Assembly (NCBI RefSeq): GCF_900637655.1
Contig: NZ_LR134384.1
Coordinates: forward strand, 1,364,001-1,428,000
Direction: 5' to 3'
Length of the DNA stretch: 64,000 nucleotides
From: Segatella oris
Lineage (GTDB): Bacteria; Bacteroidota; Bacteroidia; Bacteroidales; Bacteroidaceae
Part shown: positions 14,958-34,571 of the stretch, piece by piece
Numbering within the stretch: the first letter of the stretch is position 1
Layout: each line of letters starts with the position of its first letter
Notes under the pieces: generated by a model
The model's input: only the letters and a program-made list of their open reading frames with translations
Database searches by the model: none
What the model was told of the DNA's origin: nothing
Program-made: the position numbers and the translations under genes

Positions 14958-15161
14958 ATGGCGATAATAAATAGAATCAAAATTATGCTTGTTGAAAAAC
15001 AACGAACAAGCAAATGGCTTGCAGAACAACTCGGAAAGTCGGAAAATACTGTCTCGAAATGGTGTTCCAACAAGGTTCAACCCTCTTTGGAAAATCTTTA
15101 CGAAATTGCTAAGCTGTTAGATATAGAAGTACGTTCTTTAATTTGTTCTTCAAAAGAATAA
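14958..15161 (+). CDS. Small XRE-family (Cro/CI) helix-turn-helix regulator
   Basis: A 67-aa protein that is essentially one HTH_3 domain: RTSKWLAEQLGKSENTVSKW (residues about 16-35) is the helix-turn-helix, followed by QPSLENLYEIAKLLDIEV. Such single-domain regulators commonly precede restriction-modification and phosphorothioation operons, holding them down until the modification is established. It is the first gene after the island promoter and about 95 bases before the DUF4007 gene. Control of the island is inferred from position. Confidence 0.8.
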   Translation: MAIINRIKIMLVEKQRTSKWLAEQLGKSENTVSKWCSNKVQPSLENLYEIAKLLDIEVRSLICSSKE

Positions 15162-15254
15162 GTATGAATCTATTACGTATTCTTTTGATAATAGATACTA
15201 AGAAATCTATTAGTGATAGACATTTTGCTAAAAGCTTTAATTGTAATTCTAACT

Positions 15255-16115
15255 ATGGTTATAACTAAATATACATTTTCAGGACACGAATCATTCCCCT
15301 GTAAGACATTGTGGCTTAAAAAAGGATATGATTTTGTTCTAGAAAATAATGATTGGAACAATCTTTACTCTGTTGTTAAACTCGGAGTTGGGAAAAATAT
15401 GGTAGCATCTATACGTTATTGGATGCGATCTTTTGGTCTAATAAATAATGATGGGGTAACTGATGTTGCTCATCTAATTTTTGATTCAAATAGTGGTACA
15501 GATCCTTTTATGGAAGATCTAGGTACATTATGGCTTTTACATTACCAACTTGTAAGATCTAATGAAGCAACCCTTTATAATTTATTTTTTACACGATTTC
15601 AGCGAGAACGTATGACTTTTGACAGAAATCATGTTGTTGCATTTGTCAAACGTTTTATGCTTGAGAATGGGAAAATAAAACAGTTTAACGAAAATACTAT
15701 AAAAAAAGACGTTGGCGTTCTTTTGCAAAACTATACTCTTTCACGCACACCCTCTTCTATGGAAGATTATTCTGTTCTATTAGCAGATTTAGATTTAATA
15801 TCGTTATCAAGTGATGAAAAACAATACTCTTTTAATATTGAAGGAAAGAGACAATTACCTATTGAGATACTCCTTTACGCTATCGTTAAGGAAAAAGGTA
15901 ATACTGATAGTGTAGACTATGATACACTTCAGATGATAGGCAATGTATTCTGTCTTAACGATATGGGGCTCATCAATATACTTATGAAACTACAGACAAA
16001 ATTCCCAAATATATTTCGTTATACCGATACAGCAGGATTGAGACAAGTACAATTTCTCAAGAGAGTGCTACCCTACGAAGTTCTTAAATATTACTATAGA
16101 AATGAAGAATTATAG
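15255..16115 (+). CDS. DUF4007-family protein
   Basis: A 286-aa protein beginning MVITKYTFSGHESFPCKTLWLKKGYDF, which is the conserved start of the DUF4007 family. I chose the ATG at 15255 rather than an in-frame ATG at 15213, because the extra hydrophobic residues are not part of the family. From memory, DUF4007 genes usually neighbour PAPS-reductase-like genes, and here the order is DUF4007, ATPase, PAPS reductase with overlapping coding ends (14 bp with the next gene). The function is unknown. The Cys in FPCKTLW and the GHESF motif are the most family-like residues. A DNA-binding or target-selection role, like DndB or BrxP partners, is speculation. Confidence 0.75.
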   Translation: MVITKYTFSGHESFPCKTLWLKKGYDFVLENNDWNNLYSVVKLGVGKNMVASIRYWMRSFGLINNDGVTDVAHLIFDSNSGTDPFMEDLGTLWLLHYQLVRSNEATLYNLFFTRFQRERMTFDRNHVVAFVKRFMLENGKIKQFNENTIKKDVGVLLQNYTLSRTPSSMEDYSVLLADLDLISLSSDEKQYSFNIEGKRQLPIEILLYAIVKEKGNTDSVDYDTLQMIGNVFCLNDMGLINILMKLQTKFPNIFRYTDTAGLRQVQFLKRVLPYEVLKYYYRNEEL

Positions 16116-19100
16116 TCCATCGGCCAATATAGAATCCGGGGTTACAGGTAATGAAAAATACATTATTACACCCAATGTTCAAAAAGTAGCGGGCGAAATC
16201 GTTAATCAGTATCAAGCAGGCATTCATTCTTTTACCATCATTGGGACATATGGTACAGGAAAGTCGTGTTTCCTTCTGAAATTAGAACGAGACCTAATTG
16301 GATTTGATTCTGAGGCTGCTTTGATAAAAAGCCTAAGAGTCTTAGCTCCAGTTAGCGGAGTTGACATACTAAACATAATTGGAGAGTATTCTTCATTAGA
16401 GCGGCTAATAATTGATAAATTAAATAAGAAGGCGAATGGAGATACTGCGATAGAACTATTAAAAAACTATTACAATAGATTGAAAAGGCAGAATAAAATG
16501 CTAGTAATAGTCATTGATGAATTTGGTAAACTTCTTGAACACGCAGCAAAAAATGAAGTTGAGAAAGAACTATACTTTGTGCAACAGCTGGCAGAGTTTG
16601 TCAATATGCCTGAAAGAAATATTCTTTTGCTAACAACTCTCCATCAAAATTTTAGTTCATATGCATCCAAACTCAGTTCGGTTCAAAAGAACGAATGGAC
16701 AAAAGTAAAAGGACGCTTCCAAGAAGTGGTGTTTGCAGAACCTGTAGAGCAGTTGTTGTATATGGCTGCGGAGTCTCTTAACAATGAGGTTATCAATGCT
16801 GACATGCAGGTATCTAGTATTTATGCAATGGCTCTAAAGTGTAAGCTTATAGTGCCGACACTCAAAGAAGAGACGATACGAAAACTCTTTCCTTTAGATG
16901 CATTTTCTGCAGTAATACTCACAAAGGCTATTCAAAAATATGGCCAGAATGAACGTTCTTTGTTTTCATTTCTGAATGCTAATGGATCTCATGCTCTGAA
17001 TTCTTTTGAGCCTACGCCTACTTGTACATATAATTTGAGTATAGTTTATGATTATCTTGTAGCTTATTTCCATTCATATTTGTCTGATGCAAATGCAGAT
17101 TCAATGGGATGGAGAGCTATCCTTGTAGCCATAGAACGTGTGGAAACTGCCGACTGGAAGACTACTCAATTAATGGAGGAAGCAATAAAGACAATAAAAG
17201 CAATCGGTCTTCTCAATATTTTTGGAGGGGCGGGATTCTCTATGTCAAAGAATGAGCTTGTCGATTATATGAAACAAGCTATGTCAATAGATTTTGCAGA
17301 AAATTTACTAGATGAACTGATTCGACGTCGTATTATAAGGTATGCAGAGTACAAATCACGATTTATCCTGTTTGAAGGGACTGATGTAAACATTGAAGAT
17401 GAAATTATAAAAGCTTCGACTATTGTATCTATTCCAACGAACCCTGTTGATTCTCTTAGAGACATTTTAGGCAATCATATAGTTCCTGTTAAGGCATATT
17501 ATTACTATAGTGGTACACCTCGCTATTTTGAGTATCTTCTCTCTGAAAGTCCTTTGGATTTAATTCCAGTTGGAGAAGTTGATGGGTTTATTGAATTAAT
17601 TTTCTCAACAAATGAAAATACAACAGATGAGGTACGAAAGTTTAGTGCAAATTGCGAATATGCACGTGTATTTGCAGTTTTCAACAATACAGAATCTTTT
17701 ATTTTACATTTGCACAAAATACAGATTTATGACTATATCATTCAAAAAACTTTGATAGATAAGACTGATCATATTGCCTTACGTGAAATTAACAATCTAA
17801 AGTCATATGAACATAACTTGTTAAAAAAAGAGCTTAAAGAAAGCCTATTCTCATATAATGGACACGTCGTCTGGTTCTACAAGGGAGAAGAAAAGATAAT
17901 AAAGAATCAGCGAGACTTCAATTCTTTATTATCTTATGTTTGCAAGGATGTTTATCCTCTTAGTCCTGTTATAAGTAATGAACTTATTAATCGTCATAAA
18001 CTGAGCGGAAGCATATCTGCCGCACGTATAAAATACTTACAAGCCCTTATTGGTGAATCAGAAAAAGACGATTTTGGATGGGACAAAGAGAAATGCCCTC
18101 CAGAGAAATCAATCTATTACACTCTACTCAAAACGACGGGCTTACACAAAGGCGGAGAATTTGCAGAAGAGCCGACAGTAGATAGCATTATGCCCTTATG
18201 GAATGCCTGTGAGAGTTTTCTTCGTAGTACTCAAGATAAATCGCGAAAAATATCTGAACTGATTAAGATGCTATCCGAAAAACCCTACAAGGTAAAGATG
18301 GGAGTATTGGATTTCTGGATTCCTACATATTTGTATATGAAGCGGCTTGACTATTCTCTATTTGGAAGTAATGGTATGTATATCCCGGAAGTCAATATGG
18401 AATTCTTTGATTTATTAAAGAAGCATCCTTCAGATTTTAGTATAAAGGCATATACAGAAGATGGTGTAAAAATAAAATTCTATAACCAATATCGAAGGTT
18501 TATCAATGTAAGTGAAGACGAAAAGATTAAAGGAGACAAGTTTATAGAAACAATAAAACCTTTCTTTTCTTTTTATAGCCGTCTGAATGATTATGCTAAA
18601 TACACACGTAAATTTGACAATATTACAACTCTTCGTTTTCGAGATGTATTGGCTAAAGCCAAGGATCCGGAGAAGACGTTTTTTGAGGATTTACCTGAAG
18701 CTTTAGGATACGATAAAAAATCTCTTGACAATGAGGTGTTTGTAAAAAATTATTGCAATCTCATCCAAAAGGCTGTGAGAGAACTTCGTTCGTGTTATAA
18801 TGCGCTAATAGATCGAATAGAAGGACAATTAATCGAAAGGCTTGAACTACAAGGATATGAATATTCAGATTACATCATTGAGATTCGTCATCGTCTTTCA
18901 CATATAAAAGAACATCTCCTGTCGGACAAGCAACATGATTTTTATAATCACGTTATGACAATATTCGACAATCGACAAGAATGGTTTCAAAGTATTGCAT
19001 ATGCTGCTCTGGATCAACCTCTTGAGCGTTTAAAAGATGACCAAGAGGAACAACTAATAGATAATATCGTATATCTCTTCCGTGAGTGTGAGAAACACTC

Positions 19101-19251
19101 TATTGTTTCTGAAGCCATGTCTTTTCAAATAAATGCTGAAGAGAGAAAACGCTCTAAAGAGTTAGAAACGAAAATAGAGAAGCTATTGTCAGAGGATGTT
19201 AATCTCAATATCTATGCTTTGATGAATTTATTGAAAAAGAAAATGAAATGA
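16102..19251 (+). CDS. Large P-loop ATPase of the DUF4007/PAPS-reductase module
   Basis: A 1049-aa protein with Walker A GTYGTGKS at residues 48-55 and Walker B VIVIDEFGK at 135-143, followed by NILLLTTLHQNF (sensor-like) around 170. This is a KAP/STAND or ORC-like AAA domain at the N-terminus with a long alpha-helical remainder, resembling in layout the BrxC/PglY or DndF-type large ATPases of DNA modification systems. The end is Lys/Glu-rich and helical. It overlaps DUF4007 by 14 bp and the PAPS-reductase gene by 4 bp (ATGA), so the three are translationally coupled. The role (motor or sensor of DNA) is inferred. Confidence 0.72.
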   Translation: MKNYSPSANIESGVTGNEKYIITPNVQKVAGEIVNQYQAGIHSFTIIGTYGTGKSCFLLKLERDLIGFDSEAALIKSLRVLAPVSGVDILNIIGEYSSLERLIIDKLNKKANGDTAIELLKNYYNRLKRQNKMLVIVIDEFGKLLEHAAKNEVEKELYFVQQLAEFVNMPERNILLLTTLHQNFSSYASKLSSVQKNEWTKVKGRFQEVVFAEPVEQLLYMAAESLNNEVINADMQVSSIYAMALKCKLIVPTLKEETIRKLFPLDAFSAVILTKAIQKYGQNERSLFSFLNANGSHALNSFEPTPTCTYNLSIVYDYLVAYFHSYLSDANADSMGWRAILVAIERVETADWKTTQLMEEAIKTIKAIGLLNIFGGAGFSMSKNELVDYMKQAMSIDFAENLLDELIRRRIIRYAEYKSRFILFEGTDVNIEDEIIKASTIVSIPTNPVDSLRDILGNHIVPVKAYYYYSGTPRYFEYLLSESPLDLIPVGEVDGFIELIFSTNENTTDEVRKFSANCEYARVFAVFNNTESFILHLHKIQIYDYIIQKTLIDKTDHIALREINNLKSYEHNLLKKELKESLFSYNGHVVWFYKGEEKIIKNQRDFNSLLSYVCKDVYPLSPVISNELINRHKLSGSISAARIKYLQALIGESEKDDFGWDKEKCPPEKSIYYTLLKTTGLHKGGEFAEEPTVDSIMPLWNACESFLRSTQDKSRKISELIKMLSEKPYKVKMGVLDFWIPTYLYMKRLDYSLFGSNGMYIPEVNMEFFDLLKKHPSDFSIKAYTEDGVKIKFYNQYRRFINVSEDEKIKGDKFIETIKPFFSFYSRLNDYAKYTRKFDNITTLRFRDVLAKAKDPEKTFFEDLPEALGYDKKSLDNEVFVKNYCNLIQKAVRELRSCYNALIDRIEGQLIERLELQGYEYSDYIIEIRHRLSHIKEHLLSDKQHDFYNHVMTIFDNRQEWFQSIAYAALDQPLERLKDDQEEQLIDNIVYLFRECEKHSIVSEAMSFQINAEERKRSKELETKIEKLLSEDVNLNIYALMNLLKKKMK

Positions 19252-20357
19252 CAAACGTAAGACATATACTCGGCATATCAGGAGGCAAAGATAGTGCTGC
19301 CCTTTCTATCTATCTAAAGCAGAAATATCCTCAGATGAAGATAGAGTATTACAATTCTGACACGGGTTGCGAGTTGGAAGAGACCGAGAGGCTAATAGAT
19401 AAACTTGAAGCCTATTTAGGGAGTATTAAGCGATTACGTGCAGCAGAAAGGAGTCCCGAAGCAACTCCCTTTGACCACTTTCTGAAAGCCTGTGGTGGAT
19501 TTCTTCCATCTCCACAAGCTCGATGGTGTACGCAAAAAATGAAATTAGCTGAATTTGAACAATATGTTGGAGATGATTATGCGGTATCTTATGTCGGCAT
19601 ACGCGGTGATGAAAATCGTGATGGATACATCTCCTCAAAGCCCAATATCCAAGCGGTCTTTCCTTTCCGAAGAAATATTTGGAGCATTGACATTATTAAT
19701 AAGATTCTCCATAATGATCAGCGGGAACAACTAATTGATATCTATAATCATTTTTATTCGGAGTCCCAGCAAGAAAAAATTATGGGAATATTAAAAAGAC
19801 CACTTAGTAAACAGTTTTATTATTCTAAAACGCTTAATGCTTTACTTGACATTGACGTAAAATTATTCAACCGCGTAGTTTTTGAGTATCTAAAGACCAC
19901 AGACTACCCAGTGGGAAAATTGGATTCATTTCCACTAATAGATAATGATGAAGTTCTCGTCAAGGAGGATATATTTCGTTTGTTGCACGAAAGTGGAGTT
20001 GGAGTTCCTGCATATTACGAAAAGATACCTTTTGAAGTTGATGGAAAGATTGGAACATATTGTCGAAGCCGTTCAGGCTGTTATTTCTGTTTCTACCAGC
20101 AGAAAATTGAATGGGTTTGGCTTTATGAACAGCATCCTGACCTATTTAAAAAAGCAATGGAATACGAAAAAGATGGTTACACCTGGAATCAAGGTGAGAG
20201 TTTGGAAGACTTAATTAAGCCTGAACGTATACGTCAAATTAAGTTAGATGCTATTAAACGACAAGAACAAAGAGCAAAGATGAACAGCAATTCTTTGTTG
20301 GTAGATATATTCACGGACGATGATAATGACGTTTTATGTGCAAATTGTTTTATATAG
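19248..20357 (+). CDS. Phosphoadenosine phosphosulfate reductase-family (DndC/BrxP-like) enzyme
   Basis: A 369-aa N-type ATP pyrophosphatase. The PP-loop is SGGKDS (residues 11-16), followed by NSDTGCELEET. Cysteines C94 (ARWCTQKMK), C272, C278 and C281 (CRSRSGCYFC) match the pattern of iron-sulfur ligands in DndC, the enzyme that activates the DNA backbone for sulfur insertion; sulfate-assimilating PAPS reductases lack this arrangement and would sit with cys genes. A second CxxC ends the protein (LCANCFI). It overlaps the ATPase gene by ATGA. No cysteine desulfurase (DndA) is nearby; a host IscS could supply sulfur. Sulfur modification of DNA is a hypothesis. Confidence 0.78.
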   Translation: MTNVRHILGISGGKDSAALSIYLKQKYPQMKIEYYNSDTGCELEETERLIDKLEAYLGSIKRLRAAERSPEATPFDHFLKACGGFLPSPQARWCTQKMKLAEFEQYVGDDYAVSYVGIRGDENRDGYISSKPNIQAVFPFRRNIWSIDIINKILHNDQREQLIDIYNHFYSESQQEKIMGILKRPLSKQFYYSKTLNALLDIDVKLFNRVVFEYLKTTDYPVGKLDSFPLIDNDEVLVKEDIFRLLHESGVGVPAYYEKIPFEVDGKIGTYCRSRSGCYFCFYQQKIEWVWLYEQHPDLFKKAMEYEKDGYTWNQGESLEDLIKPERIRQIKLDAIKRQEQRAKMNSNSLLVDIFTDDDNDVLCANCFI

Positions 20358-20362
20358 AAAGT

Positions 20363-22549
20363 ATGGATGCGCAGAAAGAAATAAAGAAAGTCGGTTTTAC
20401 TGTAGATGCTGGACTTATTCAAAGATTGGGATATGAATTGGTCGGTCGTGCAGAAACAGCTGTATCGGAATTGATTAAAAATTCCTATGATGCTGATGCA
20501 ACGGTAGTTGATGTAGATTTTATTGATTCAAATGAAATTGGCGGAAAACTATTCATCTCAGATAATGGTGCCGGTATGTCAGAGAGTCAGTTGATTAATG
20601 GATTTATGAGAATTTCATCGACTGATAAAGTGCATAATCCTACTTCTGCAAGATTGCATAGGACAAAAGCTGGTAAAAAAGGTATTGGTCGATTCGCGGC
20701 TCAACGATTGGGAGAAAAATTGGTTATTGTTACACAAACTAAAGAATCTAAAAGTGCTATCCGGATTGAAATTGATTGGAATGAGTATTCGATAGACAGA
20801 GATTTAACATCTATCACTTTCCCTATTGAAACTGTTCAAAAAGAAAAATCTGAAGGTACAGTTATTGAGATCCACAGTCTTAGAGAGAGATGGACCGAAG
20901 CTGCTATTAAACGCATTTATAGATATGTCTTAGATTTATTTCAACCGGATTATTTGTCTGAACGAAGTAAAATCGACAGTATTGCAGTTCAAAACGAAGA
21001 GTCGTTCAAAGTGAATTTCAACTTAGTTTTCAATGATAAAAAGTATCCATTTCTAAACGACCAAATTTCTGTGTTCGATAAATCCTTAGCTGTTTTTGAA
21101 GGCTATATTAATAAGGAACATTGTGGGCTGGTAAACGTAAAAAGTGATAGTTTACACATCAATGATATTCTTGAAATTGAACACAAAGAAGATGATAACA
21201 AGTTTTCTGCTCTTTCAGATGTTTATTTTAAAATTCATTACTTCATTTACGATAGACCTCAATATTATGGAGATAAGCTTTCTGGTCTTGAATTAAAAAA
21301 AATACAAGAATTATCAAAAACAATTGGTGGTGTTAGGTTATATAGAAATGGATTCAGAGTATTACCATACGGAGAACCAAAGGATGATTGGACAAACATT
21401 GACAAACGTTGGAGCACGGAGTCTGGAAAAACAAATATCCCTCTAAACAATCAGAATTTGTTTGGCTTTGTGGAAATAATTGACCCAACAGGTGATATAT
21501 TTGAAGAAACAGCTAGTCGAGAAGGGCTAATAGAAAATGAAGCATTCCACCAGTTGTCTGATTTTATTAACAAATCTCTTATTGCCGTTAGAGGTCGGAT
21601 TGCAGAGAAAATAAAATGCTTCAAAGGCAGCCAAAACAATGATGATTTTACTCAAAATTCAGAGAAAAAAGAGCAAACAACTCTGGAAATGTTCGAAAAA
21701 TTAAAGAAGATCCTTGACTATAAATCTGATCAAAATACAGAAAAACAGAATAGCGAACAATTCTCAGAAAATGACAGAGAAGAAGGGTTGGAAATTATAA
21801 AAAAACTGGAAAATCTAATTGAAGAAGCAGGAATGCTTCGAGTATTAGCCGGTTTAGGTCTTACGATTGGAGAATTTACACATGAGATGAAGCAATTCCA
21901 TTCATCTGTTTATGGATATATCAGCAAATTAAATCAGATGCAACTTGCGGTTGAGGTACAGAGCCAATTAGATGGAATAAAAACAGATTTCGATAACCTA
22001 TTTAGTTATACTGAGTATTTTGGAACAACGATATCTCAAAATATAAATAGAAAGAAATCACCAATAGATTTGTTGGCAACTTTGGATAGATTTTGCAACA
22101 TAATAAAAAATGACTTGGAAAAAAATCAAATTGAGCTCCAAATTACTGCATTTGACTTTGATGCTATCACAATACCTATGCACAGTTCTGAATGGAATTC
22201 AATTTTGTATAATTTATACACAAATTCAAGAAAAGCCATAAAGAGGGCAAAAGTGGCAGGTAAAATTTTGGTCGAAGTTGGCGTTGAAAATGAAGATACG
22301 TTTATCAACTTTCACGATAATGGAGACGGTATCCCAAAGGAAAATGAACATAGGATTTTTAATGCATTCTTTTCAACTTCTACACCTGCAAGTTTTGACG
22401 CTCCTAACGAAGAACAGTTGATTGGGACAGGTCTTGGACTAAAAATAGTAAAAGACATTGTGGTTTCATACAAAGGGAATGTCTGTGTTGTATCCCCCAA
22501 TCAAGGATATTCTACGTGCTTAAAAATTACGATTAGTAAAAACAAATAA
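20363..22549 (+). CDS. Double GHKL ATPase: Hsp90/MutL-like N-domain fused to a histidine-kinase C-domain
   Basis: A 728-aa protein starting at ATG 20363. N-terminal Hsp90/MutL-type ATPase: ELIKNSYDAD (36-45), ISDNGAGM (65-72), GKKGIGRFA (104-112). A Lys/Glu-rich coiled segment covers about 420-490. C-terminal histidine-kinase part: a candidate phospho-acceptor His507 in GEFTHEMKQ, an N-box LYNLYTNSRKA (about 614), DNGDGIP (about 652) and GTGLGLKIV (about 689). Having two GHKL domains in one chain is uncommon. The gene begins five bases after the PAPS-reductase stop and is followed ten bases later by a receiver protein, an obvious partner. It may sense phage or DNA state and signal by phosphotransfer. 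Confidence 0.78.
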   Translation: MDAQKEIKKVGFTVDAGLIQRLGYELVGRAETAVSELIKNSYDADATVVDVDFIDSNEIGGKLFISDNGAGMSESQLINGFMRISSTDKVHNPTSARLHRTKAGKKGIGRFAAQRLGEKLVIVTQTKESKSAIRIEIDWNEYSIDRDLTSITFPIETVQKEKSEGTVIEIHSLRERWTEAAIKRIYRYVLDLFQPDYLSERSKIDSIAVQNEESFKVNFNLVFNDKKYPFLNDQISVFDKSLAVFEGYINKEHCGLVNVKSDSLHINDILEIEHKEDDNKFSALSDVYFKIHYFIYDRPQYYGDKLSGLELKKIQELSKTIGGVRLYRNGFRVLPYGEPKDDWTNIDKRWSTESGKTNIPLNNQNLFGFVEIIDPTGDIFEETASREGLIENEAFHQLSDFINKSLIAVRGRIAEKIKCFKGSQNNDDFTQNSEKKEQTTLEMFEKLKKILDYKSDQNTEKQNSEQFSENDREEGLEIIKKLENLIEEAGMLRVLAGLGLTIGEFTHEMKQFHSSVYGYISKLNQMQLAVEVQSQLDGIKTDFDNLFSYTEYFGTTISQNINRKKSPIDLLATLDRFCNIIKNDLEKNQIELQITAFDFDAITIPMHSSEWNSILYNLYTNSRKAIKRAKVAGKILVEVGVENEDTFINFHDNGDGIPKENEHRIFNAFFSTSTPASFDAPNEEQLIGTGLGLKIVKDIVVSYKGNVCVVSPNQGYSTCLKITISKNK

Positions 22550-22558
22550 ACATTTTCT

Positions 22559-23668
22559 ATGACAACAAAATTCTATTATATTGACGACGATCCTAATTCT
22601 CAAAATAAAGTACAAGGTTTTGAGAATGAAGATTTAGACATTGTTGCAATGCAACATAAAGACTCTTGGGAAGAAGAATTTTCGTTCTTGAACGATGAGA
22701 AAGACCAATTTGATGGGATAATTCTTGATTTGAAACTTGATGATTTACCAAATAGTAATGGTAAAAGAGCCGATTTTCGAGGAACTTCTCTTGCACAAGA
22801 AATTAGGACGAGACAAAAAGAGGGAAGCATGAATAGTTTCCCGATTATCCTGTTTTCTGCGAATGATAAAACCCAACAAGCATTGGAAAATTCGGGAAAA
22901 GATTTGTTTGATATTCTTATCAATAAATCAATGTTGGATGACATTGCATTTTCTCGTTTTACTCCTCAATTAATTGATTTATCTGATGGCTACAAGCGTT
23001 TGACGGATTCTTCATTAGCAATAATAAACGAGGTCTTGCAAATTGATGAAATGATTCTTGACAGTAGATTTGTTGGCGAGTATAATAAAAACAAGGAGTG
23101 TCCAGTACATATTCAATCAAGATTCTTAATTACAGAATTTTTGACAAAACAGGGATTAGTAATTGATGAAGATGTACTTGCAGCAAGACTTGGTATTGAT
23201 AAGTCTAATTCTGATGATTGGCCTAATTTGTTGAAAAGATTATCGGAAGCCAAGTATCAAGGTGTGTTTTGCAATGGGTGGCCTCGTTGGTGGATGCAAT
23301 TGGTGGAACAATGGTGGACTGAAACTATCAAAGCTGAAACTTTTTTGCGTTCGACACCTGCAGCCGAAAGAGTTGAAAAGATAAAAGAAGTTACTGAACT
23401 ACCAGGATTAGTTGCCGCAAAAAAAATAGACAAGTCAGAAAGTGACGAATTCTGGACTGTTTGCAAAGGTTTTGGTCAGCCATTAGATCCAATAGATGGA
23501 ATGTTAATCCAAGGCCAAGATAATTTGTATTCTTGGCAAGAACCTGAATATGTTTCAATTGAAGCTGCACTATGGAGAAAAAACATTGATAACTGGGTAA
23601 GCGTTGCAGATATTGAAAAAGAAAAATATGAAAATTTGAAAGTATTGTATTCACGCAAAAAGCAATAA
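22559..23668 (+). CDS. Receiver-domain protein with unknown C-terminal domain
   Basis: A 369-aa protein with an N-terminal receiver-like domain: acidic pocket YIDDDP (D9-D11), phospho-acceptor candidate D57 in GIILDLKL, and a later INKS (Lys of the receiver fold). The spacing is longer than in standard receivers (insert with NSNGKRADFRG at 65-75). The remaining 200 residues (WPNLLKRLSEAKYQGVF, GWPRWWMQLVEQWW) match no output domain I recognise and carry no DNA-binding motif. It lies directly after the double GHKL protein, so the two look like a private two-component pair whose output is not transcription. Confidence 0.7.
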   Translation: MTTKFYYIDDDPNSQNKVQGFENEDLDIVAMQHKDSWEEEFSFLNDEKDQFDGIILDLKLDDLPNSNGKRADFRGTSLAQEIRTRQKEGSMNSFPIILFSANDKTQQALENSGKDLFDILINKSMLDDIAFSRFTPQLIDLSDGYKRLTDSSLAIINEVLQIDEMILDSRFVGEYNKNKECPVHIQSRFLITEFLTKQGLVIDEDVLAARLGIDKSNSDDWPNLLKRLSEAKYQGVFCNGWPRWWMQLVEQWWTETIKAETFLRSTPAAERVEKIKEVTELPGLVAAKKIDKSESDEFWTVCKGFGQPLDPIDGMLIQGQDNLYSWQEPEYVSIEAALWRKNIDNWVSVADIEKEKYENLKVLYSRKKQ

Positions 23669-23671
23669 GAT

Positions 23672-24334
23672 ATGGGAAACTATGCAACGGAAATACAAAA
23701 TATTGCAACCATTCTCAAGAAGAATAGACTATGTTCTGACACTTCCCCATTAACTAATGGTTACAATAATGGAAAATGCAATGTCGCAAAGCTGAAATTC
23801 AATATAAGTAATGTTCCACGGAATACGAAACCCGCAGTAGATTTCTTGGCTGTTATTTTAGATGTTGCTTTCGATGAAAAAACGGGTACAGACATTCCCG
23901 TTACTAATTATTTTTTTAAGGTAACAGTTGAAGGACTAGATGGTAGTAATAATGTAAAATCGTCTTGGCATTTGGATTATGATAGCAATAATGGGCAAGA
24001 TTATGTTCATCCTTATTTCCATTTAACTTGGGGTGGTGATACAATAAAAAAAATGAATTTAGGGAATGTATTGCTTTTGCCAACTCCTCGAATTTCATAC
24101 CCGCCTATGGATATTATATTGGGGATAGATTTTGTACTTTCTAATTTTGTAAAAGCAGAAATTTACAAGAAAATTCAGAGTGATTCACAATATAAAGCTG
24201 CAGTGAAAAAGGCACAAGAAAAACTATGGAAACCTTATATGTTGTCATTAGCTCATCATTGGTGTAAAAATATATGTTCTAATGTTCATTTGAATACTAT
24301 TACTGCTACGAATTTCCATCCAACATTGATATAG
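23672..24334 (+). CDS. Uncharacterised 220-aa protein
   Basis: I do not recognise this protein. It begins three bases after the receiver gene and seems mostly beta-stranded at first (residues 35-105), then has HPYFHLTWGG and LLLPTPRISYPPMDIILGIDFVL (about 112-155), which look like a conserved block, and ends in a helical region with two Cys (WCKNICSN). There is no signal peptide or membrane segment, so it is likely cytoplasmic. Its position fits a third member of the GHKL-receiver unit. It is AT-rich like its upstream neighbours, while the next gene is visibly richer in GC. Confidence 0.6.
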   Translation: MGNYATEIQNIATILKKNRLCSDTSPLTNGYNNGKCNVAKLKFNISNVPRNTKPAVDFLAVILDVAFDEKTGTDIPVTNYFFKVTVEGLDGSNNVKSSWHLDYDSNNGQDYVHPYFHLTWGGDTIKKMNLGNVLLLPTPRISYPPMDIILGIDFVLSNFVKAEIYKKIQSDSQYKAAVKKAQEKLWKPYMLSLAHHWCKNICSNVHLNTITATNFHPTLI

Positions 24335-24344
24335 GTTAATTGCA

Positions 24345-26615
24345 ATGCTAAAAGAAGTGATATTTCCAGCACACCGCCATTTTAAATCGCGGACAGAGTG
24401 GGAACCTATAGGCTTCTTCTCTGATTGTTTGTGTAATGCCACTAGATTTGATTTAATGTTAGGGTTCTTTTCCTCTTCTGCAATTAATATCTTAGCTGAT
24501 GGTTTCGCATCGTTTCTATATAATGGTGGACGTATGAATCTAATTGTAAACGACATTCTGACTGAGCAAGATAAAAATGCCATTGCCAGTGGTGAACTTG
24601 ATTTGTACATACCATTTTTCGATATAACTGACATCGAAAAACTAAAAAATATATTGTCAGAACGAGATACTCATTTCTTCGAATGCCTTGCCTGGCTTAT
24701 CCGCAACAATCGGCTTGACATTAGAATTATTGCCCCAAAAGATGGCATTGGTATTTCGCACACCAAAACAGGTATTTTTAGTGATGGAGTGAATAAAGTC
24801 TGTTTCGATGGCTCTTGCAACTTTTCACGGTCGGCATTGATTGACAATATCGAAAGCCTTACGGCTTTCTGCGATTGGGACGGCAATCCAGCATCCGCTA
24901 CCATAAATAAAATCAACGGAGAGTTTGAACTTGTGTTTACAGGCAAAGATGAGAATGTTGTTTTTGTTCCAACCGACAGAGTGAAAACCCATATTGCAGA
25001 ATCGTTCAAAAATAAGGAACTGAAGGATTTACTGGAAGATGAATACAAGTTTATTCAGCAGGATATTGCTGATAAGTTATTGCCAAAATCTGTGACTAAG
25101 GCGTTGGAAAAAGCCAAAAACAAAGTTGAGTTCGAGATAGAGAGAATCAAGAAGCAAGGCGAAACTATTGAGTCAATTGATTTTGGTAAGCCTAGTTTCC
25201 CATACGAATCTGGTCCACGTGAATATCAGAAACAAGCATTTGAGAATTGGAAGCATAATAAGCAGAAAGGCTTGTTTGTAATGGCGACAGGTACGGGCAA
25301 AACTATTACCTCTCTGAATTGTCTTCTTGAGATCTACAACAAGTTAGGCTACTACAAAGCCATTATCCTTGTTCCGACCATTACACTTGTCGAACAATGG
25401 GAATCTGAATGTAAAAAGTTCAATTTTAGAACAATCATAAAAGTTTGCTCAAAGTATAACAATTGGAAATCGGCGGTGGCTAATCTTCGCTTGCTCGAAA
25501 TGACGAACGCCAGCAATGATTTGTCATACATTATCATATCAACTTACGCATCGTTTGTCCGTTCCAATGTTTTTATGGAATTGAACCAATTCCCCAAAAA
25601 TAAACTTTTATTTATCGCTGACGAGGCTCACAATATGGGTGGCGGATTGATGGCTCAGCGCCTTTCTGATATAAAATATTTGCGTCGCATAGGACTTTCT
25701 GCTACACCCGAAAGGCAGTTTGATGATACGAGTAACCGAAAACTGATGGATTTCTTTGGCTGTGCCAACAATTACACCTTTGAATATTCAATGGCTGAAG
25801 CCATTCAAAAAGGTGCTTTGTGCCGTTATTATTACTATCCACACATTGTTCGACTGACCGAAAACGAAATGGCTGATTATGTTGAACTTTCAAAAAAGAT
25901 AGTCAAAATAATGGGCTTTCACGATGAGGAAAGTTTGAAACGATTGAAAATGCTTTTACTAAAACGCAAACGTATCATTCACAAAGCAGCCAACAAGTTG
26001 TCCGCTTTCCAACAGATTGTTCAACAGCGTATGGAAGAAAAGAACAGTCTGAAATACACGTTGGTCTATGTTCCAGAAGGCAACAAGCCCGACAATTTCG
26101 AGGCAGATATTTTCGATCAATCCGACACCATCGATTCCGACCCTGAAACAGAACATCTGATTGACGTTTTCACTCGCATTGTCCGTGATATGAATTCTCA
26201 TATCATTGTCCGTCAGTTTACTTCTGAATCAACCGACCGCGATGCCATGCTCAAAGGCTTTACCGATGGCAACATTGATGTGCTTACCTCGATGAAGTGT
26301 TTGGATGAAGGTGTTGATGTGCCGCGAAGCGAATTGGCTATATTCTGTGCAAGCACAGGGAACCCACGCCAATTCATTCAACGCCGTGGTCGTGTCCTAC
26401 GTACACACAAAGACAAACGCTTCGCCATCATTCACGACCTCATCGTAATACCTGACAATGTGTTTGATGAAGAATGCTACGCTTTGGAGAAAAGCCTTGT
26501 GCAAAGCGAGTTGAGACGTGTCCGTGATTTTGCATTATTGTCAGAGAATCTGAATGATACCGACAACGAACTGCAAGAAGTATTAAATCATTATAATTTA
26601 TCCATATTTAATTAG
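24345..26615 (+). CDS. PLD-nuclease/DEAD-box helicase, like phosphorothioation-linked restriction enzymes
   Basis: A 756-aa protein. The N-terminal phospholipase-D-like nuclease part has GISHTKTGIF (HxK, about residue 138) and DGSCNFSRSAL (about 150-160), a single PLD motif set. The C-terminal superfamily 2 helicase has ATGTGKT (about 313), IADEAHNMGG (about 424) and QRRGRVLRTH (about 678). The PLD-helicase fusion is that of type III-like restriction subunits and of the family annotated in Dnd loci as the DNA phosphorothioation system restriction enzyme. That family association is from memory, not a search. It starts 10 bases after the unknown protein and would be the cutting component of the island. 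Confidence 0.75.
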   Translation: MLKEVIFPAHRHFKSRTEWEPIGFFSDCLCNATRFDLMLGFFSSSAINILADGFASFLYNGGRMNLIVNDILTEQDKNAIASGELDLYIPFFDITDIEKLKNILSERDTHFFECLAWLIRNNRLDIRIIAPKDGIGISHTKTGIFSDGVNKVCFDGSCNFSRSALIDNIESLTAFCDWDGNPASATINKINGEFELVFTGKDENVVFVPTDRVKTHIAESFKNKELKDLLEDEYKFIQQDIADKLLPKSVTKALEKAKNKVEFEIERIKKQGETIESIDFGKPSFPYESGPREYQKQAFENWKHNKQKGLFVMATGTGKTITSLNCLLEIYNKLGYYKAIILVPTITLVEQWESECKKFNFRTIIKVCSKYNNWKSAVANLRLLEMTNASNDLSYIIISTYASFVRSNVFMELNQFPKNKLLFIADEAHNMGGGLMAQRLSDIKYLRRIGLSATPERQFDDTSNRKLMDFFGCANNYTFEYSMAEAIQKGALCRYYYYPHIVRLTENEMADYVELSKKIVKIMGFHDEESLKRLKMLLLKRKRIIHKAANKLSAFQQIVQQRMEEKNSLKYTLVYVPEGNKPDNFEADIFDQSDTIDSDPETEHLIDVFTRIVRDMNSHIIVRQFTSESTDRDAMLKGFTDGNIDVLTSMKCLDEGVDVPRSELAIFCASTGNPRQFIQRRGRVLRTHKDKRFAIIHDLIVIPDNVFDEECYALEKSLVQSELRRVRDFALLSENLNDTDNELQEVLNHYNLSIFN

Positions 26616-26621
26616 TGAAAT

Positions 26622-26855
26622 ATGAGTACATATAAAACAAACGGTGATAAGATTTTACAGGCTGTAATTGCTGATGAACAGCTTCTCAATTTCTATGGCT
26701 ACAATCCCGATAATTTCAGGTCAATTTCAGAAGCCTTGGATTCTGAAATAGCAGTAATCCAAGCCATAGCACAAATTATCAACCGAAATGAGCAAAAAGC
26801 TACCGAAAGGGAAATCTACAATGAAGTCAGTAACTTTTTAAAAGCAAACATATGA
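26622..26855 (+). CDS. Small protein of the DNA-modification type cluster (77 aa)
   Basis: A 77-aa protein between the helicase and the SMC-like ATPase, overlapping the latter by ATGA. It is predicted helical, with SISEALDSEIAVIQAIAQIINRN and a C-terminal YNEVSNFLKANI. Small proteins in this position are known in Dnd-type clusters (DndE and others annotated as modification-system-associated small protein), but similarity to DndE is not visible by eye. Probably a partner or regulator of the following ATPase. Confidence 0.65.
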   Translation: MSTYKTNGDKILQAVIADEQLLNFYGYNPDNFRSISEALDSEIAVIQAIAQIINRNEQKATEREIYNEVSNFLKANI

Positions 26856-29026
26856 TTATCAAAGATATAAAAATAAATAACTTCCGTAGTTACTACGGAA
26901 GCAATAACCTTTCGTTATCAAAAGGTCTAACTTTGGTTATCGGAGATAATGGTGATGGTAAAACGACCTTATTTGAAGCGTTGGAATGGCTGTTCGACAC
27001 GACGGGCGAGAACAGAAAAGATTCACACATTTCCGAAAAGCGTAAATCAGAATTAGAAATTGGTGAAAGTGATGAGGTCTCGGTAAGCATAACCTTTGAA
27101 CATGATGGTGAGAAAGAGATAGAAAAGAGTTTCACTTTTGAGAGAATATCCGGAGACAACATTCGTACAAAGGATTACAAGTTTGTCGGATATTCCATTG
27201 TTGGTGCGGAACGTCATTCCATAGCCGGCGACAAGCTGTTGAATGGGTGTTTTGAGCCTGTCTTACGCAAATATTGTTTGTTCAAAGGGGAAAACGAACT
27301 CAATGTTTTCGACAATGACACTGCGTTGAAAACGTTGGTTGATACGTTTTCGGGAATCAGGGATTTTGACAAATTGGTTGATTTGACATCAAATTTTGAG
27401 CAAAGCTCTGCAAGAGCGGCAAACCGTGAATTGCAAAACGATAAGAAAGTATCGAAGCAAGCGAAAGAATTGAATACACAACTGAATGATGTTACAAACG
27501 ACATTCAAAGCATCAAGACAGAACTCAATCAAAAGAAAATCTCAATCAATGAATTTTCGTCGAAGTTGGAATTGCTAGAAAAGAACCAAGAAACATCGGA
27601 ACGCTACCAAGCCATAAAAGAACGTATCAAAGGGTTGAAAGACAAGCAGGCGAAGTTGGTGGCGTGGTCATCGTGCGAGTACAGCACTAACTTGTTGGAT
27701 GAATATTGGATTTTACGTTCCTTCCCTGCAATCATAAAAGAGTTTTCCGCAAAAGTTTCTGCTTTGAGCAAAGAGAAACGAAGACTTGACAAACAGGAAA
27801 CAGAACGTCGTGCGAAAGAGGCTGGAGAACGTGAGGCTATTTCAAAAATTCAAAAACTTGCCAATGATGCCGTTCCTTTGCCATGGAATTTGCCCGATGA
27901 GGCGACAATGAAAGAAATGATTGATGATGAAATCTGTAAAGTCTGCGGTCGCCCTGCCCCCAAAGATTCGGAGGCTTACGAATTTATGTGTAATAAACTG
28001 AATGAATATCTTGCCCATATAGCAGCGGAGGCCAATAAAAATTCAAGTTTAAAAGAGGATGATGATAAGCCGCTGTTTCCAAATTCTTTTATCAATGAAT
28101 TACATTCTCGCCAAATCAAATTAAGTGGCGACACAGAGCAGGAGATTGCAAAGATTGCAACAACAATTTCAGATCGTTTGGAATTTGTTGCGAAAAGAAA
28201 GGCGGAATTGGCAGAGGTAGATAAACAGCTGCAAGAGTTGGAAATAGAACAAAATGATTTGCTGATGCAATCAGGTTTAAGCACAGATTTGCTAGATAAG
28301 ACTATATCTGATTTAAGAGGTTTCTTTGATGCTAAAAGTCGTGCTGAAAGCCGTGTTTCAGAATTGGAAACCACTCTAAAATACAAGGAGAGTGCAAGAG
28401 ACGAAATACAAGAAAAACTGTCGCAACTTGAACCGACAAGTTCTATGACACAGGTATATCAGCGTGTGCATATTGCATTTGAGAAGATAACCAAAACATT
28501 CGCTAACGCAAGAGAGCAGAATGTTAATAATTTTCTTCAAATTCTTGAGAATGAATCAAATAAATATTTACAGAAGTTGAATAAAAACGACTTCTATGGA
28601 ATAATTCGCATCAGAAAAACCCTCAACAGTTCTGCACGTATTGAACTCTATAGTGATAACGGAACTCGAATCGAAAATCCAAACGGTGCACTGAAGACAA
28701 CTATGTATATGTCGGTCCTGTTTGCCATTTCTCAAATCACAACATTGAAACGCGAACAAGACTATCCATTGATCTTTGATGCCCCAACATCCTCATTCGG
28801 CGGTTTCAAGGAAGATACTTTCTACAATGTAATAGATACCATTGATAAGCAATGTGTTATCGTTACGAAAGACTTGCTCAATATCGACAAAGTAACAGGA
28901 AAAAAGGTGTTGGATTTCGACACAATCAATATACTTTCTTGTTCTGTCTTCCGGATTGAGAAAGTAGAACCATTCAATGACAAGGATTTGTCAACCATTC
29001 AAACAATTGTTAAACAGGTAAAATAA
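26852..29026 (+). CDS. DndD/SMC/RecN-like coiled-coil ATPase
   Basis: A 724-aa ABC-type ATPase with the split layout of SMC and DndD proteins. Walker A is GDNGDGKTT at residues 31-39; two long coiled coils flank a zinc hook ICKVCGRPAP (C362, C365) near the middle; Walker B is PLIFDAPTSSF (about 637-647). It opens KINNFRSYYG like RecF/DndD. DndD provides the ATPase for sulfur incorporation in phosphorothioation systems, and SMC-like ATPases also serve as sensors in Septu, Gabija and related defences. It overlaps the 77-aa gene and is followed after 6 bases by the last gene. Confidence 0.78.
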   Translation: MIIKDIKINNFRSYYGSNNLSLSKGLTLVIGDNGDGKTTLFEALEWLFDTTGENRKDSHISEKRKSELEIGESDEVSVSITFEHDGEKEIEKSFTFERISGDNIRTKDYKFVGYSIVGAERHSIAGDKLLNGCFEPVLRKYCLFKGENELNVFDNDTALKTLVDTFSGIRDFDKLVDLTSNFEQSSARAANRELQNDKKVSKQAKELNTQLNDVTNDIQSIKTELNQKKISINEFSSKLELLEKNQETSERYQAIKERIKGLKDKQAKLVAWSSCEYSTNLLDEYWILRSFPAIIKEFSAKVSALSKEKRRLDKQETERRAKEAGEREAISKIQKLANDAVPLPWNLPDEATMKEMIDDEICKVCGRPAPKDSEAYEFMCNKLNEYLAHIAAEANKNSSLKEDDDKPLFPNSFINELHSRQIKLSGDTEQEIAKIATTISDRLEFVAKRKAELAEVDKQLQELEIEQNDLLMQSGLSTDLLDKTISDLRGFFDAKSRAESRVSELETTLKYKESARDEIQEKLSQLEPTSSMTQVYQRVHIAFEKITKTFANAREQNVNNFLQILENESNKYLQKLNKNDFYGIIRIRKTLNSSARIELYSDNGTRIENPNGALKTTMYMSVLFAISQITTLKREQDYPLIFDAPTSSFGGFKEDTFYNVIDTIDKQCVIVTKDLLNIDKVTGKKVLDFDTINILSCSVFRIEKVEPFNDKDLSTIQTIVKQVK

Positions 29027-29032
29027 CAAATT

Positions 29033-29608
29033 ATGGCGACAGAAAAAATATATGATTTGTGGGCAAACCGAAATCCACAATGGGAAAAAAGATACGAAGA
29101 CAGCATCATCAAAAACTTTTGTGACTATGGCCGTGGTGCAACTTCTTTACGTGAAGACAGAGGAAAAGTCTTTGGTGGTGGTTATGAAATATTCATTGTC
29201 GCATTTTTTATGGGACTTTATTTCAACCAAAAGCGACCACTCATAGAGGACACACAAAAACGCAAGACTTTCGGACAGCCCATTCAATATTGGGGCAATT
29301 TAGACTCTGTCAAAGGACGAAAAGCCTATCCGAAACTCCGGGAGTATATTTTCACCGCTCTTGTTTCCCGTACCGACATTGATTTCATTGCTTTGGAAAA
29401 AGGCGAAATGACATCACGAAAAGCGGTTGACATGCTTATGCAGACAATGGAGGAGTACGCCAATTGGGGGTTTCATTTTATGGAGGATAAACTGACCGAT
29501 GCCCCTAATTATTTCTTTCGTGAAACTGCATTTTTAGAAGTATTTTTAGCTTTTGATGCCGCAGCTTCTGAAAATATAAATGAAGATGAACCAGAATCAT
29601 TAGATTAA
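29033..29608 (+). CDS. Uncharacterised 191-aa protein, last gene of the island
   Basis: Starts six bases after the ATPase gene. The sequence has GGGYEIFIVAFFMGLYFNQKRPL (a family-like block, about residues 47-69; quoted in part: FMGLYFNQKRPL) and a helical acidic C-terminus. It may be related to the Dnd system-associated protein family that shows a similar aliphatic block followed by a Gly-rich turn, but I cannot confirm this by eye. No membrane segments or signal peptide are evident. Just downstream lies AT-rich sequence and then the scar of older element genes, so this is where the island ends. Confidence 0.6.
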   Translation: MATEKIYDLWANRNPQWEKRYEDSIIKNFCDYGRGATSLREDRGKVFGGGYEIFIVAFFMGLYFNQKRPLIEDTQKRKTFGQPIQYWGNLDSVKGRKAYPKLREYIFTALVSRTDIDFIALEKGEMTSRKAVDMLMQTMEEYANWGFHFMEDKLTDAPNYFFRETAFLEVFLAFDAAASENINEDEPESLD

Positions 29609-29724: not shown

Positions 29725-30126
29725 CTAATCTCCATTCTTTATTAGATGACATAAACTTGGAGTGGTCTTAATTATTCTAATCTCATTATCAACAAGTGTT
29801 AGTATCTCTTTTTTTACACGCTTATAGTTGGCTTCGATGGTCTCGTTGAGAGCGTCGGAGCCATTTTCGTTTGTAAAGTCTGCTATCACAGGTATGGGTT
29901 GGTAGGCTTTCATCTCGGCAGATACCTTGACACTGTCCACCACAATCTCTGCATGAAAAATCTTCTGGTTGATGCGTTCATCAAAGTTGTCTGATACTGC
30001 CCCCACAAACATTCCTTGCGTAAGGTTACTGATTTTGGATGCAGGGATAAGGCTATCCATCTGAGTGGAAATAGATGTGGATTTGTCATTGCGGTTGATG
30101 GTCATAGACTGCCGTTGCTGGAGCAC
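29725..30126 (-). pseudogene. Remnant of mobC/TraG coupling protein (C-terminal ~130 aa)
   Basis: On the minus strand the frame reads VLQQRQSMTINRNDKSTSIS and continues to HLIKNGD, nearly the same as the C-terminal part of the intact mobC product at 39916-41919 (from about residue 537). It contains the true end of the protein but lacks the N-terminal 80 percent, including the Walker A. Upstream it is joined to a DUF3945 fragment, so it cannot make a functional coupling protein. It marks the right edge of the defence-like island. Confidence 0.85.
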
Positions 30127-30730
30127 ATTACTTGTCAAAGATGAACTTAATGCCTTTTCGCTCGGCATTAACCTGCAACGTGGCATTGAAAGTTTTTCCA
30201 CTCTTGGCGGTCATGCCCTCCACCTTCACAGCCTTACCTTCCACAAGGTCTTTATACTGTGCATCGGAAAGGGTAATACCCTTGATTTCCTTGGGGATAT
30301 TCACATGGTCAGCACGCAGGGCTATAATTTCGTTGGTCTGCGGATCGATAGAGACGTAAGCAGAAAAAGGCTCAGCGTTCTTGAGTGTTACTTCGATAGT
30401 TTTACCGAGATTGCCCGTAGTGAGAAGTGCCTCCTTTTCTTCGGGAGAGAACTTGTAGCCCATATAGGAAAAGTCAAGCTGTGGTTCTTTTCTCAAAGGA
30501 TGAATTGCCAAACCGATATTGCCGCTATCGTCTGTGCAGAAAGCAAGGCGAGCTTCGGTGTAGATAGTCGTGTCGCCAATAGGTACGGCAATCGTCAAGA
30601 GATTGCTCTTCTGCCAATTGAGCATCTTTTCTAATTCTCCACTCTGCTCCAATCTCTCACGGGAAAGACCGAGATCGTCGAGTTGCTTCCAATCAACCTT
30701 CGACTCATCGATGGCAGTAGCATTCTTCTT
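30126..30730 (-). pseudogene. Remnant of DUF3945 gene (internal ~200 aa), joined to the mobC remnant
   Basis: The minus-strand frame from KNATAIDESKVDWKQLD to ERKGIKFIF is nearly identical to residues about 128-327 of the intact DUF3945 protein at 13334-14743. Both ends are lost: the N-terminus gives way to unrelated sequence near 30730, and the C-terminus breaks off just before the mobC remnant. It lies upstream of, and in the same direction as, the mobC remnant, an order opposite to that of mobC to DUF3945 in the intact element, as expected for a junction between two element copies. Confidence 0.85.
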
Positions 30731-32622: not shown

Positions 32623-32625
32623 TGT

Positions 32626-34371: not shown

Positions 34372-34400
34372 ATATGTGTCGTTTTGATTTTTTTCTGCTG

Positions 34401-34435
34401 CAAAAGTACGGCAACAAACAGGGATAAAATAACCC
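34401..34435 (-). promoter_or_regulatory. Promoter and GGGTTATTT box of the ABC operon
   Basis: On the minus strand TACTTTTG (complement of 34401-34408) matches TAnnTTTG 30 bases before the ATG. A GGGTTATTT box (complement of 34427-34435) starts exactly 27 nt upstream of the first base of that -7 element. There is no normal TTTG -33 box, which fits an activator-dependent promoter. Confidence 0.6.
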
Positions 34436-34510
34436 CGATAAGCATTACACTGCCCCAAAACAACAATTTGCTCGCATATAAACACAACAGGGGTATAAGC
34501 GTGTATAATA

Positions 34511-34545
34511 GGGTTATTTGTTTGCTCGGAAGGTAAGTACCTTTG
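34511..34545 (+). promoter_or_regulatory. Promoter and GGGTTATTT box of the TonB receptor operon
   Basis: GGGTTATTT at 34511-34519 and TACCTTTG at 34538-34545; the distance between their first bases is again 27 nt, the same geometry as in the divergent ABC promoter. The AraC regulator encoded at 38273 is the likely binder. Confidence 0.6.
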
Positions 34546-34571
34546 CACAGAATCTCACAAACAAATATGAT

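Follow-up and report, generated by a model that had tools for sequence, protein, structure and literature searches.

A GHKL-receiver-X220 gene triad between SspBCD and PbeABCD modules in a candidate phosphorothioate-based defence island of Segatella oris

How might a DNA modification and restriction system make use of a histidine kinase and a receiver protein? This question is raised by a run of genes in Segatella oris (NCBI RefSeq assembly GCF_900637655.1, contig NZ_LR134384.1), located at positions 14958-29608 of the 64,000-nucleotide stretch analysed here (contig positions 1,364,001 to 1,428,000, forward strand; hereafter the window), that is at genome coordinates 1378958-1393608. The packed plus-strand run recognised in the original prediction is present: an XRE gene is followed by ten tightly packed genes, including a small open reading frame (ORF) at 26622-26855 that fills out the set, which gives 11 genes in total (Table 1). 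The reading frames of all genes named are open at their place on the plus strand, and from sspB to the last gene adjacent genes overlap or lie 3-10 bp apart as judged from their coordinates, which is operon-like. The arrangement is not due to chance, as other genomes show the genes in the same order. The original prediction saw here a sulfur-type modification and restriction system with a signalling module. This view holds in so far as an SspBCD writer, a PbeABCD module and kept phosphotransfer residues are found, but the system is of the Ssp rather than the Dnd or type 4 BREX kind, and the signalling genes look like a portable module.

The new part of the island is a triad of genes between the known SspBCD and PbeA/PbeC modules, encoding a double GHKL protein (GHKL), a receiver protein (REC) and a third protein, X220. 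This three-gene kinase module has barely been described before. Searching 393 genomes of the host's order for REC yielded matches in six, including the window's own genome, and GHKL, REC and X220 are consecutive in 6/6. Two of them (L018, L019) are without SspBCD and carry a methyltransferase gene right after X220, in which an NPPY motif was seen by eye; Pfam assigns the enzyme of L018 to Eco57I/N6_Mtase. For a wider survey, 84,980 species genomes were scanned with a GHKL alignment. The best 80 of at least 545 confirmed relatives, together with the window and L015-L019 and minus two duplicate contigs, make up a set of 84 loci, which were annotated with hidden Markov models. The whole triad is present in 58/84 GHKL loci, its partner being an N6-adenine methyltransferase in 40 cases, SspBCD in 15, neither in three and both in none (weaker matches were accepted for X220 of L095 and REC of L096, the latter still being without X220, and L015 and L021, identical in GHKL, were both counted). 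Six of the 84 loci (window, L015-L019) had been preselected for having REC; without them, 52 triads remain among 78 loci, with 38, 11 and three in the respective classes. Where at least 6 kb of sequence is available on either side (41 triads), 28 have methyltransferase, 12 SspBCD and one neither. Thus, a modification enzyme lies beside the triad in 55/58 loci. The partnerless triads are found near contig ends (L044, L059) or beside a DndB-like gene that directly precedes the triad (L067:8662-9900; PF14072 E 1.6e-13).

Intergenic gaps measure at most 50 bp between GHKL and REC in 57/58 triads and between REC and X220 in 58/58. In 27 loci the methyltransferase gene follows downstream on the strand of the triad, in 11 it lies upstream and in two it is encoded on the opposite strand; SspD is found upstream in the orientation of the triad in 12 loci and on the opposite strand in three. 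As a control, the methyltransferase profile labelled 0/18 loci (3.8-19.9 kb) picked for SspD or PbeA. The hosts belong to Bacteroidota, Pseudomonadota, Chloroflexota, Planctomycetota, Acidobacteriota, Bacillota and Campylobacterota, and include one haloarchaeon. Clustering of the genes within 6 kb on each side revealed no further family recurring in more than five of 56 triad neighbourhoods, so that the survey gave no sign of a separate restriction enzyme common to these loci. More than an add-on, the signalling genes look like a portable unit of three genes, whose more frequent neighbours are adenine methyltransferases.

In viral genomes of IMG/VR, the same GHKL alignment retrieved 66 loci, 65 of which have the GHKL profile. 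GHKL and REC occur together in 15/66, and each of these 15 loci also contains a methyltransferase label (weak in L162 and L165); these loci are not fully independent, as some are alike and L160 and L178 have equal scores. The whole triad is present in 8/66, in all eight with a methyltransferase. In two prophages (L154:2513-8392; L155:1316-7213), methyltransferase, GHKL, REC and X220 are the sole same-strand ORFs of at least 110 amino acids (aa) between integrase and repressor. This interval of L155 holds one more, overlapping ORF on the opposite strand, and in both prophages a replication-nicking gene lies beyond the bracketed unit. We take this gene to be P2 gpA-like. If this is a defence system, the triad is the most likely source of the attack, since the four-gene form is bounded in both prophages and the triad neighbourhoods yielded no additional shared gene. 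A complete N6 methyltransferase-GHKL-REC-X operon is also harboured by Escherichia coli TUM11353 (L219:7200-13020), the single genome among 5,426 with a DNA-level match. Profiles match all four genes, which are annotated as N-6 DNA methylase, sensor histidine kinase and twice as hypothetical, and the operon adjoins type I restriction-modification genes (M, S, HsdR). By profile matches, a Hymenobacter plasmid carries GHKL-REC-X-methyltransferase. Every listed key residue is retained in the five triads examined (L154, L155, L156, L219, L220).

By their sequences, GHKL and REC carry the residue set of a His-Asp two-component pair. The double GHKL sensor and the receiver were correctly named in the original prediction: Pfam finds two HATPase domains in the former and a weak, below-cut-off Response_reg match in the latter. 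The phospho-accepting His516 of GHKL is kept in 58/58 triads and the kinase N/G boxes in 55-57 of 58. Among 62 REC proteins, the phospho-accepting D57 is retained in 62/62, S100 in 54/62 and K123 in 57/62. The N-terminal part of GHKL matches NF050001 at 2.7e-23, far below that model's cut-off. No known family was found for X220, and no match turned up for the C-terminal part of REC after barely any searching.

We propose, with a probability of roughly 0.55, that the genes constitute a mobile three-module phosphorothioate-based defence island, made up of an SspBCD writer, a GHKL-REC-X220 restriction-like effector gated by His-Asp phosphotransfer, and a PbeABCD arm. This proposal builds on the gene content, the intact motifs, the recurrent linkage and the module structure of the island. 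SspB-SspC-SspD would write phosphorothioate marks on host DNA, using sulfur from a desulfurase encoded outside the island, probably SufS. GHKL, which unites a MORC-like ATPase with a histidine kinase, would sense the DNA state or the missing mark, autophosphorylate His516 and pass the phosphate to Asp57 of REC. Via its C-terminal part, REC would in turn release or activate X220 (or REC itself), and the activated effector would attack unmarked DNA or the infected cell, thereby contributing to phage defence. PbeABCD would act as a second, helicase/HKD-type restriction arm reading the same mark. C-proteins time expression in restriction-modification systems, and the XRE protein probably does so here. 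The gene order, that is sensor ATPase-kinase, receiver and X220, suggests signal, relay and effector, and an effector role is supported by the location of the triad in the slot of SspE. Hence, this may be a restriction system that decides on attack of foreign DNA through a phosphate relay. On our best reading, the triad pairs with SspBCD in Bacteroidota and is here combined with PbeABCD. A generalization, which we offer tentatively and at less than even odds, would see in GHKL-REC-X220 a new phosphorelay-decided restriction module, with X220 as a new effector family, which works with N6-methyladenine in most lineages or, after one writer switch in Bacteroidota, with phosphorothioate.

Several observations weigh against this proposal. 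SspD is present in 0/66 viral GHKL loci, and only four (perhaps five) of the 20 SspD genomes of the order have the triad. None of the triad proteins was recognised as a nuclease, and REC and X220 show no recognisable nuclease fold or motif, which leaves the attack step without support, and the clustering of the 56 neighbourhoods would miss a nuclease that varies by lineage. Pairwise distances of GHKL correlate weakly with those of SspD (r 0.22; 87/2000 permutations as high) and SspC (r 0.29; 31/2000) across 14 Ssp loci, and the data thus do not show that triad and sulfur writer coevolved tightly. Finally, REC might bind DNA through its C-terminal part as an output domain, in which case a regulator role would gain weight. 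This is the main rival: the triad would be a transcription regulator of its neighbours, in which GHKL senses infection or DNA damage and a DNA-binding REC switches on the modification and restriction genes. In principle this would resemble CapK/CapS, where a GHKL kinase controls immune operons by phosphorylation (PMC13373217; here and below, statements on cited papers refer to parts of their text). A receiver joined to a C-terminal domain is indeed the usual response-regulator plan, and the island already has its own restriction arm in PbeABCD. However, the sparse same-strand cargo of the two prophages (L154, L155) and the lack of any additional family in more than five of the 56 neighbourhoods mean that a pure regulator would control little beyond the methyltransferase. 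It would also leave X220 unexplained, and L015, L024 and L029 possess SspBCD and the triad with no Pbe genes in view. We therefore regard a regulator as a doubtful account, albeit the strongest competitor. Less likely still is that the triad serves as an abortive-infection guard, which kills or arrests the cell once modification is lost or overwhelmed and does not restrict phage DNA directly. Gating by a phosphorelay would suit a dangerous effector, SspFGH is toxic in cells devoid of the mark (PMC8092258), and no nuclease fold turned up in X220; yet arrest and DNA attack are not separable by the present data.

Turning to the writer of the proposed three-module island, homologues of SspB, SspC and SspD sit in one operon (PADLOC E-values 4e-91, 0 and 7.2e-89). 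Profile-library scans covered nine of the 11 proteins, all except XRE and the 77-aa protein, and Pfam detected DUF4007, the two HATPase domains and ResIII, plus PAPS_reduct, Response_reg and PLDc_2 as weak matches below cut-off. The DUF4007 protein noted originally is SspB (PF13182 E 1.8e-75), and the large ATPase can be specified as SspC; it also matches BrxC at 1.8e-63, far below its SspC score. For the presumed DndC/BrxP-type PAPS-reductase-like enzyme, the resemblance to PAPS reductases persists in the weak Pfam match, whereas the DndC identity has to be given up (DndC 1e-3 versus SspD 7.2e-89); as BrxP the protein scores 1e-4. Five SspD cysteines are invariant across 17 aligned sequences. 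No DndB, DndE, PglZ or BrxL is among the listed PADLOC matches of the nine scanned proteins, and SspE is likewise absent from these matches, while locus L137 scored SspE at E 0. On this sequence evidence the modification half is Ssp, neither Dnd nor BREX-4, and for this reason the missing DndA, DndB, PglZ and BrxL, to which attention had been drawn, say little. The idea first put forward, of a system akin to Dnd or BREX-4 to which a signal module was added, is hardly credible: the weak matches of SspD to DndC and BrxP and of SspC to BrxC speak for it, but the scores of SspB, SspC, SspD and PbeA far exceed those of the Dnd and BREX profiles listed, and DndB, PglZ and BrxL are not among the listed matches. 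No SspA or other cysteine desulfurase was found in the island, inside which 0/7 Aminotran_5 places of the genome fall; the best of these places is the SufS cysteine desulfurase, located elsewhere. SspA within the locus is not essential, since sspBCD has been paired with iscS (PMC8092258). Four related Ssp loci (L024, L027, L030, L042) have a gene scoring as SspA (E 1.2e-145 or better; DndA about equal) in the vicinity of the triad.

SspD occurs in 20/393 genomes of the order (E 1e-20), and what follows sspD differs: PbeA directly (L134), SspE (L137), a lone GHKL protein (L138, L141) or the triad (four, perhaps five genomes). The lone GHKL protein immediately after sspD (L138:7976-9778; L141:9592-11382) has an MzaB-like N-terminus, and a Pfam scan gave no kinase match for it in L138. 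In L132:10305-13882 and L135:1460-5037, a further set of three unnamed genes (products of 547, 366 and 278 aa in L132, the second a BrxC/D-like ATPase) lies between sspD and pbeA and is possibly another SspBCD-linked effector. A 796-aa protein of L042 (L042:7419-9809), with relatives in L024, L028 and L030, recurs near Ssp-linked triads; it is GHKL-like by eye and has no PADLOC match. A decaying relative is seen in G388, of the same genus, which has SspBCD and a PbeA remnant with an internal stop (L133:12706-13707).

The PLD-helicase likened to phosphorothioation restriction enzymes contains HKD, Walker A and DEAH motifs and can now be named PbeA (PADLOC E 0); its dnd_restrict_1 match in NCBIfam (8e-121) stays under that model's cut-off. 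The supposed DndD/SMC-like ATPase is SMC-like, with a Walker A motif and a CKVC hook, but closest to PbeC (3e-21) rather than DndD (9e-10; PADLOC matches of PbeA and PbeC refer to the top 25 each). For the protein at the PbeD position, Pfam gave no match, and PADLOC none to a Pbe or Dnd profile. PbeA is present in 12/393 genomes of the order (E 1e-40) and adjoins SspBCD in 8/12; the remaining four comprise one genome with split contigs, one without Ssp in view and two outside the loci inspected. PbeABCD is a known phosphorothioate-linked restriction module and, judging by homology and gene order, would here form the second arm of the island. In the archaeon Halostagnicola (L095:9968-21317), GHKL, REC, X, methyltransferase, PbeA and PbeC are consecutive, so that by sequence triad and Pbe have been joined a second time, here with a different writer.

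Independent assortment of the genes, which in the original prediction would have spoken against one system, is observed in part: SspBCD, triad and PbeABCD each cohere but travel separately. Within the triad, distances correlate strongly (GHKL-REC r 0.90, GHKL-X220 0.79, REC-X220 0.83; 0/2000 permutations as high), as do those within SspBCD (r 0.51-0.85; at most 1/2000) and those of GHKL and methyltransferase (r 0.73; 47 loci; 0/2000). Identities between window and L016 amount to 88% for PbeA, 85% for PbeC, 75% for SspD and 50% for GHKL. Correlations and identities together indicate three modules, each cohesive, that have been shuffled. In a quick, unrooted maximum-likelihood tree of 80 GHKL rows, all 15 Ssp-linked rows fall within one clade of 18 (Shimodaira-Hasegawa-like approximate likelihood ratio test, SH-aLRT, 100), of which the other three are partnerless in view. 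On this tree, the choice between Ssp and methyltransferase requires one change, or three if partnerless rows are counted. We infer that the methyltransferase pairing is older than the Ssp pairing, because it is spread over phyla. Separate evolution and movement of the modules, and the gap between PbeA or PbeC and GHKL in the comparison with L016, would also be expected from ordinary crowding in a defence island, that is three unrelated systems side by side that do not cooperate. This explanation is improbable, as a writer adjoins the triad in 55/58 loci, the Ssp-linked triads group in one clade and SspBCD adjoins PbeA in 8/12 PbeA genomes of the order.

Table 1. Features of the island and its right edge (window coordinates).
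Feature	Position	Strand	Evidence
XRE-type small regulator, 67 aa	14958..15161	+	57% identical to XRE gene before GHKL in L018
SspB (DUF4007)	15255..16115 (possible GTG start 15213)	+	PADLOC SspB 4e-91; PF13182 1.8e-75; structure 6juf E 3.7e-13
SspC ATPase	16102..19251	+	PADLOC SspC E 0; Walker A and B present
SspD PP-loop ATPase (SGGKDS)	19248..20357	+	PADLOC SspD 7.2e-89; invariant C94, C278, C281, C364, C367
Double GHKL protein: N-terminal HATPase_c_3 (MORC/MutL-like), C-terminal histidine kinase, DHp His516	20336..22549	+	Pfam; H516 in 58/58 triads
Receiver protein (REC): REC domain at about residues 1-150 (D10, D57, S100, K123), C-terminal part	22559..23668	+	D57 in 62/62
X220, third triad protein, 220 aa	23672..24334	+	Conserved H100, D102, H113, H117, R140
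PbeA: PLD nuclease-like domain (HKD 139-147), SF2 helicase (Walker A 314-320, DEAH 426-429)	24345..26615	+	PADLOC E 0
77-aa protein at PbeB position	26622..26855	+	Position and size only; homologues in L016, L022, L026
PbeC: ABC/SMC-like ATPase, CKVC hook (362-365)	26852..29026	+	PADLOC PbeC 3e-21; Rad50 2.9e-7
191-aa protein at PbeD position	29033..29608	+	Position and size; no profile match
Mobile-element remnants, right edge	29824..30729	.	308 bp like 40009-40316 (86%); 594 bp directly repeated from 13771-14364 (88%)

The island is flanked by a 594-bp direct repeat (13771-14364 and 30136-30729; 88%), and in L015 and L021 SspBCD and triad stand just ahead of a stretch 72-73% identical to window positions 29873-30129. 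Genes of an integrative and conjugative element (topoisomerase, DUF3945, mobC) were named by eye, without a profile. Remnants of two mobile-element genes (29824-30729) separate the island from the next cargo block (30925-34548, ABC-transporter-like by eye), as if two cargo insertions had used a single slot. The small XRE family also precedes SspBCD loci with or without the triad as well as methyltransferase-triad loci (L018, L022, L039, L077, L132, L134, L135) and is a candidate shared timing regulator.

Restriction is normally viewed as an enzyme reading DNA directly; a decision taken via kinase and receiver would, if true, amount to a new principle of control. A single module for two unrelated marks would, likewise if true, mean that recognition of self can be separated from attack. 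The four-gene form in E. coli makes this testable in a laboratory host. Of 2,678 sspBCD clusters found, 7.4% have sspE, 7.3% sspFGH and 36 more both (PMC8092258), and for some of those that have neither, the triad may supply a restriction partner. Within the Creative Commons-licensed literature of PMC (without bioRxiv), a search for SspBCD together with PbeABCD returned only a single naming of PbeABCD, in an introduction's list of restriction partners, and SspBCD together with a histidine kinase returned nothing. In the same licensed literature, paraMORC and phosphorothioation are mentioned together only on other matters, and two-component systems or phosphorelays together with anti-phage defence gave only an unrelated match. 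The nearest earlier work is PMC8011034, which links pairs of HEF_HK and Response_reg_2 proteins to restriction-modification genes; the underlying paraMORC idea was founded in PMC2292703. The main-text parts of these two papers describe neither X220 nor the four-gene unit with adenine methyltransferase nor a pairing with phosphorothioation; X220 could be among the unnamed orthologous groups near the pairs of PMC8011034.

How, then, does the island compare with known systems? With SspABCD accompanied by SspE or SspFGH (PMC8092258) it shares the SspB-SspC-SspD writer and restriction genes next to sspD, but no SspA or SspE was found here, and triad and PbeABCD follow sspD. With DndCDEA-PbeABCD (PMC6459918) and the CxC ABC-ATPase systems (PMC10853773) it has in common PbeA, a small PbeB-sized gene, PbeC with a CxxC hook and a gene at the PbeD position, all in the same order; here, however, SspBCD replaces DndCDEA as the partner. 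The HEF_HK/Response_reg_2 paraMORC pairs (PMC8011034) likewise place a double-GHKL kinase beside a divergent receiver near DNA methylases, chiefly C5-cytosine methylases, with N6/N4 enzymes in the legend of Fig. 5. In contrast to this family, which defines PF19191 and PF19192, the triad includes X220, has N6-adenine methyltransferases or SspBCD as partners and is matched by neither model (no match to the window GHKL at E 0.01, nor to any of the 62 REC proteins at E 0.1); in L081, a distant relative, both models match with scores slightly short of their cut-offs. GHKL restriction enzymes (BbrUII/HgiDII family; VcSduA Shedu, PMC12137116) also combine an N-terminal GHKL ATPase with a restriction context, and in VcSduA the GHKL domain is proposed to control the nuclease; VcSduA bears its nuclease domain itself, whereas here a histidine kinase follows GHKL. 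Finally, in CapK/CapS a GHKL kinase, CapK, which single-stranded DNA activates, controls immune operons by phosphorylation, with a STAS/Ser substrate (PMC13373217), whereas the triad described here combines His-Asp residues with a receiver.

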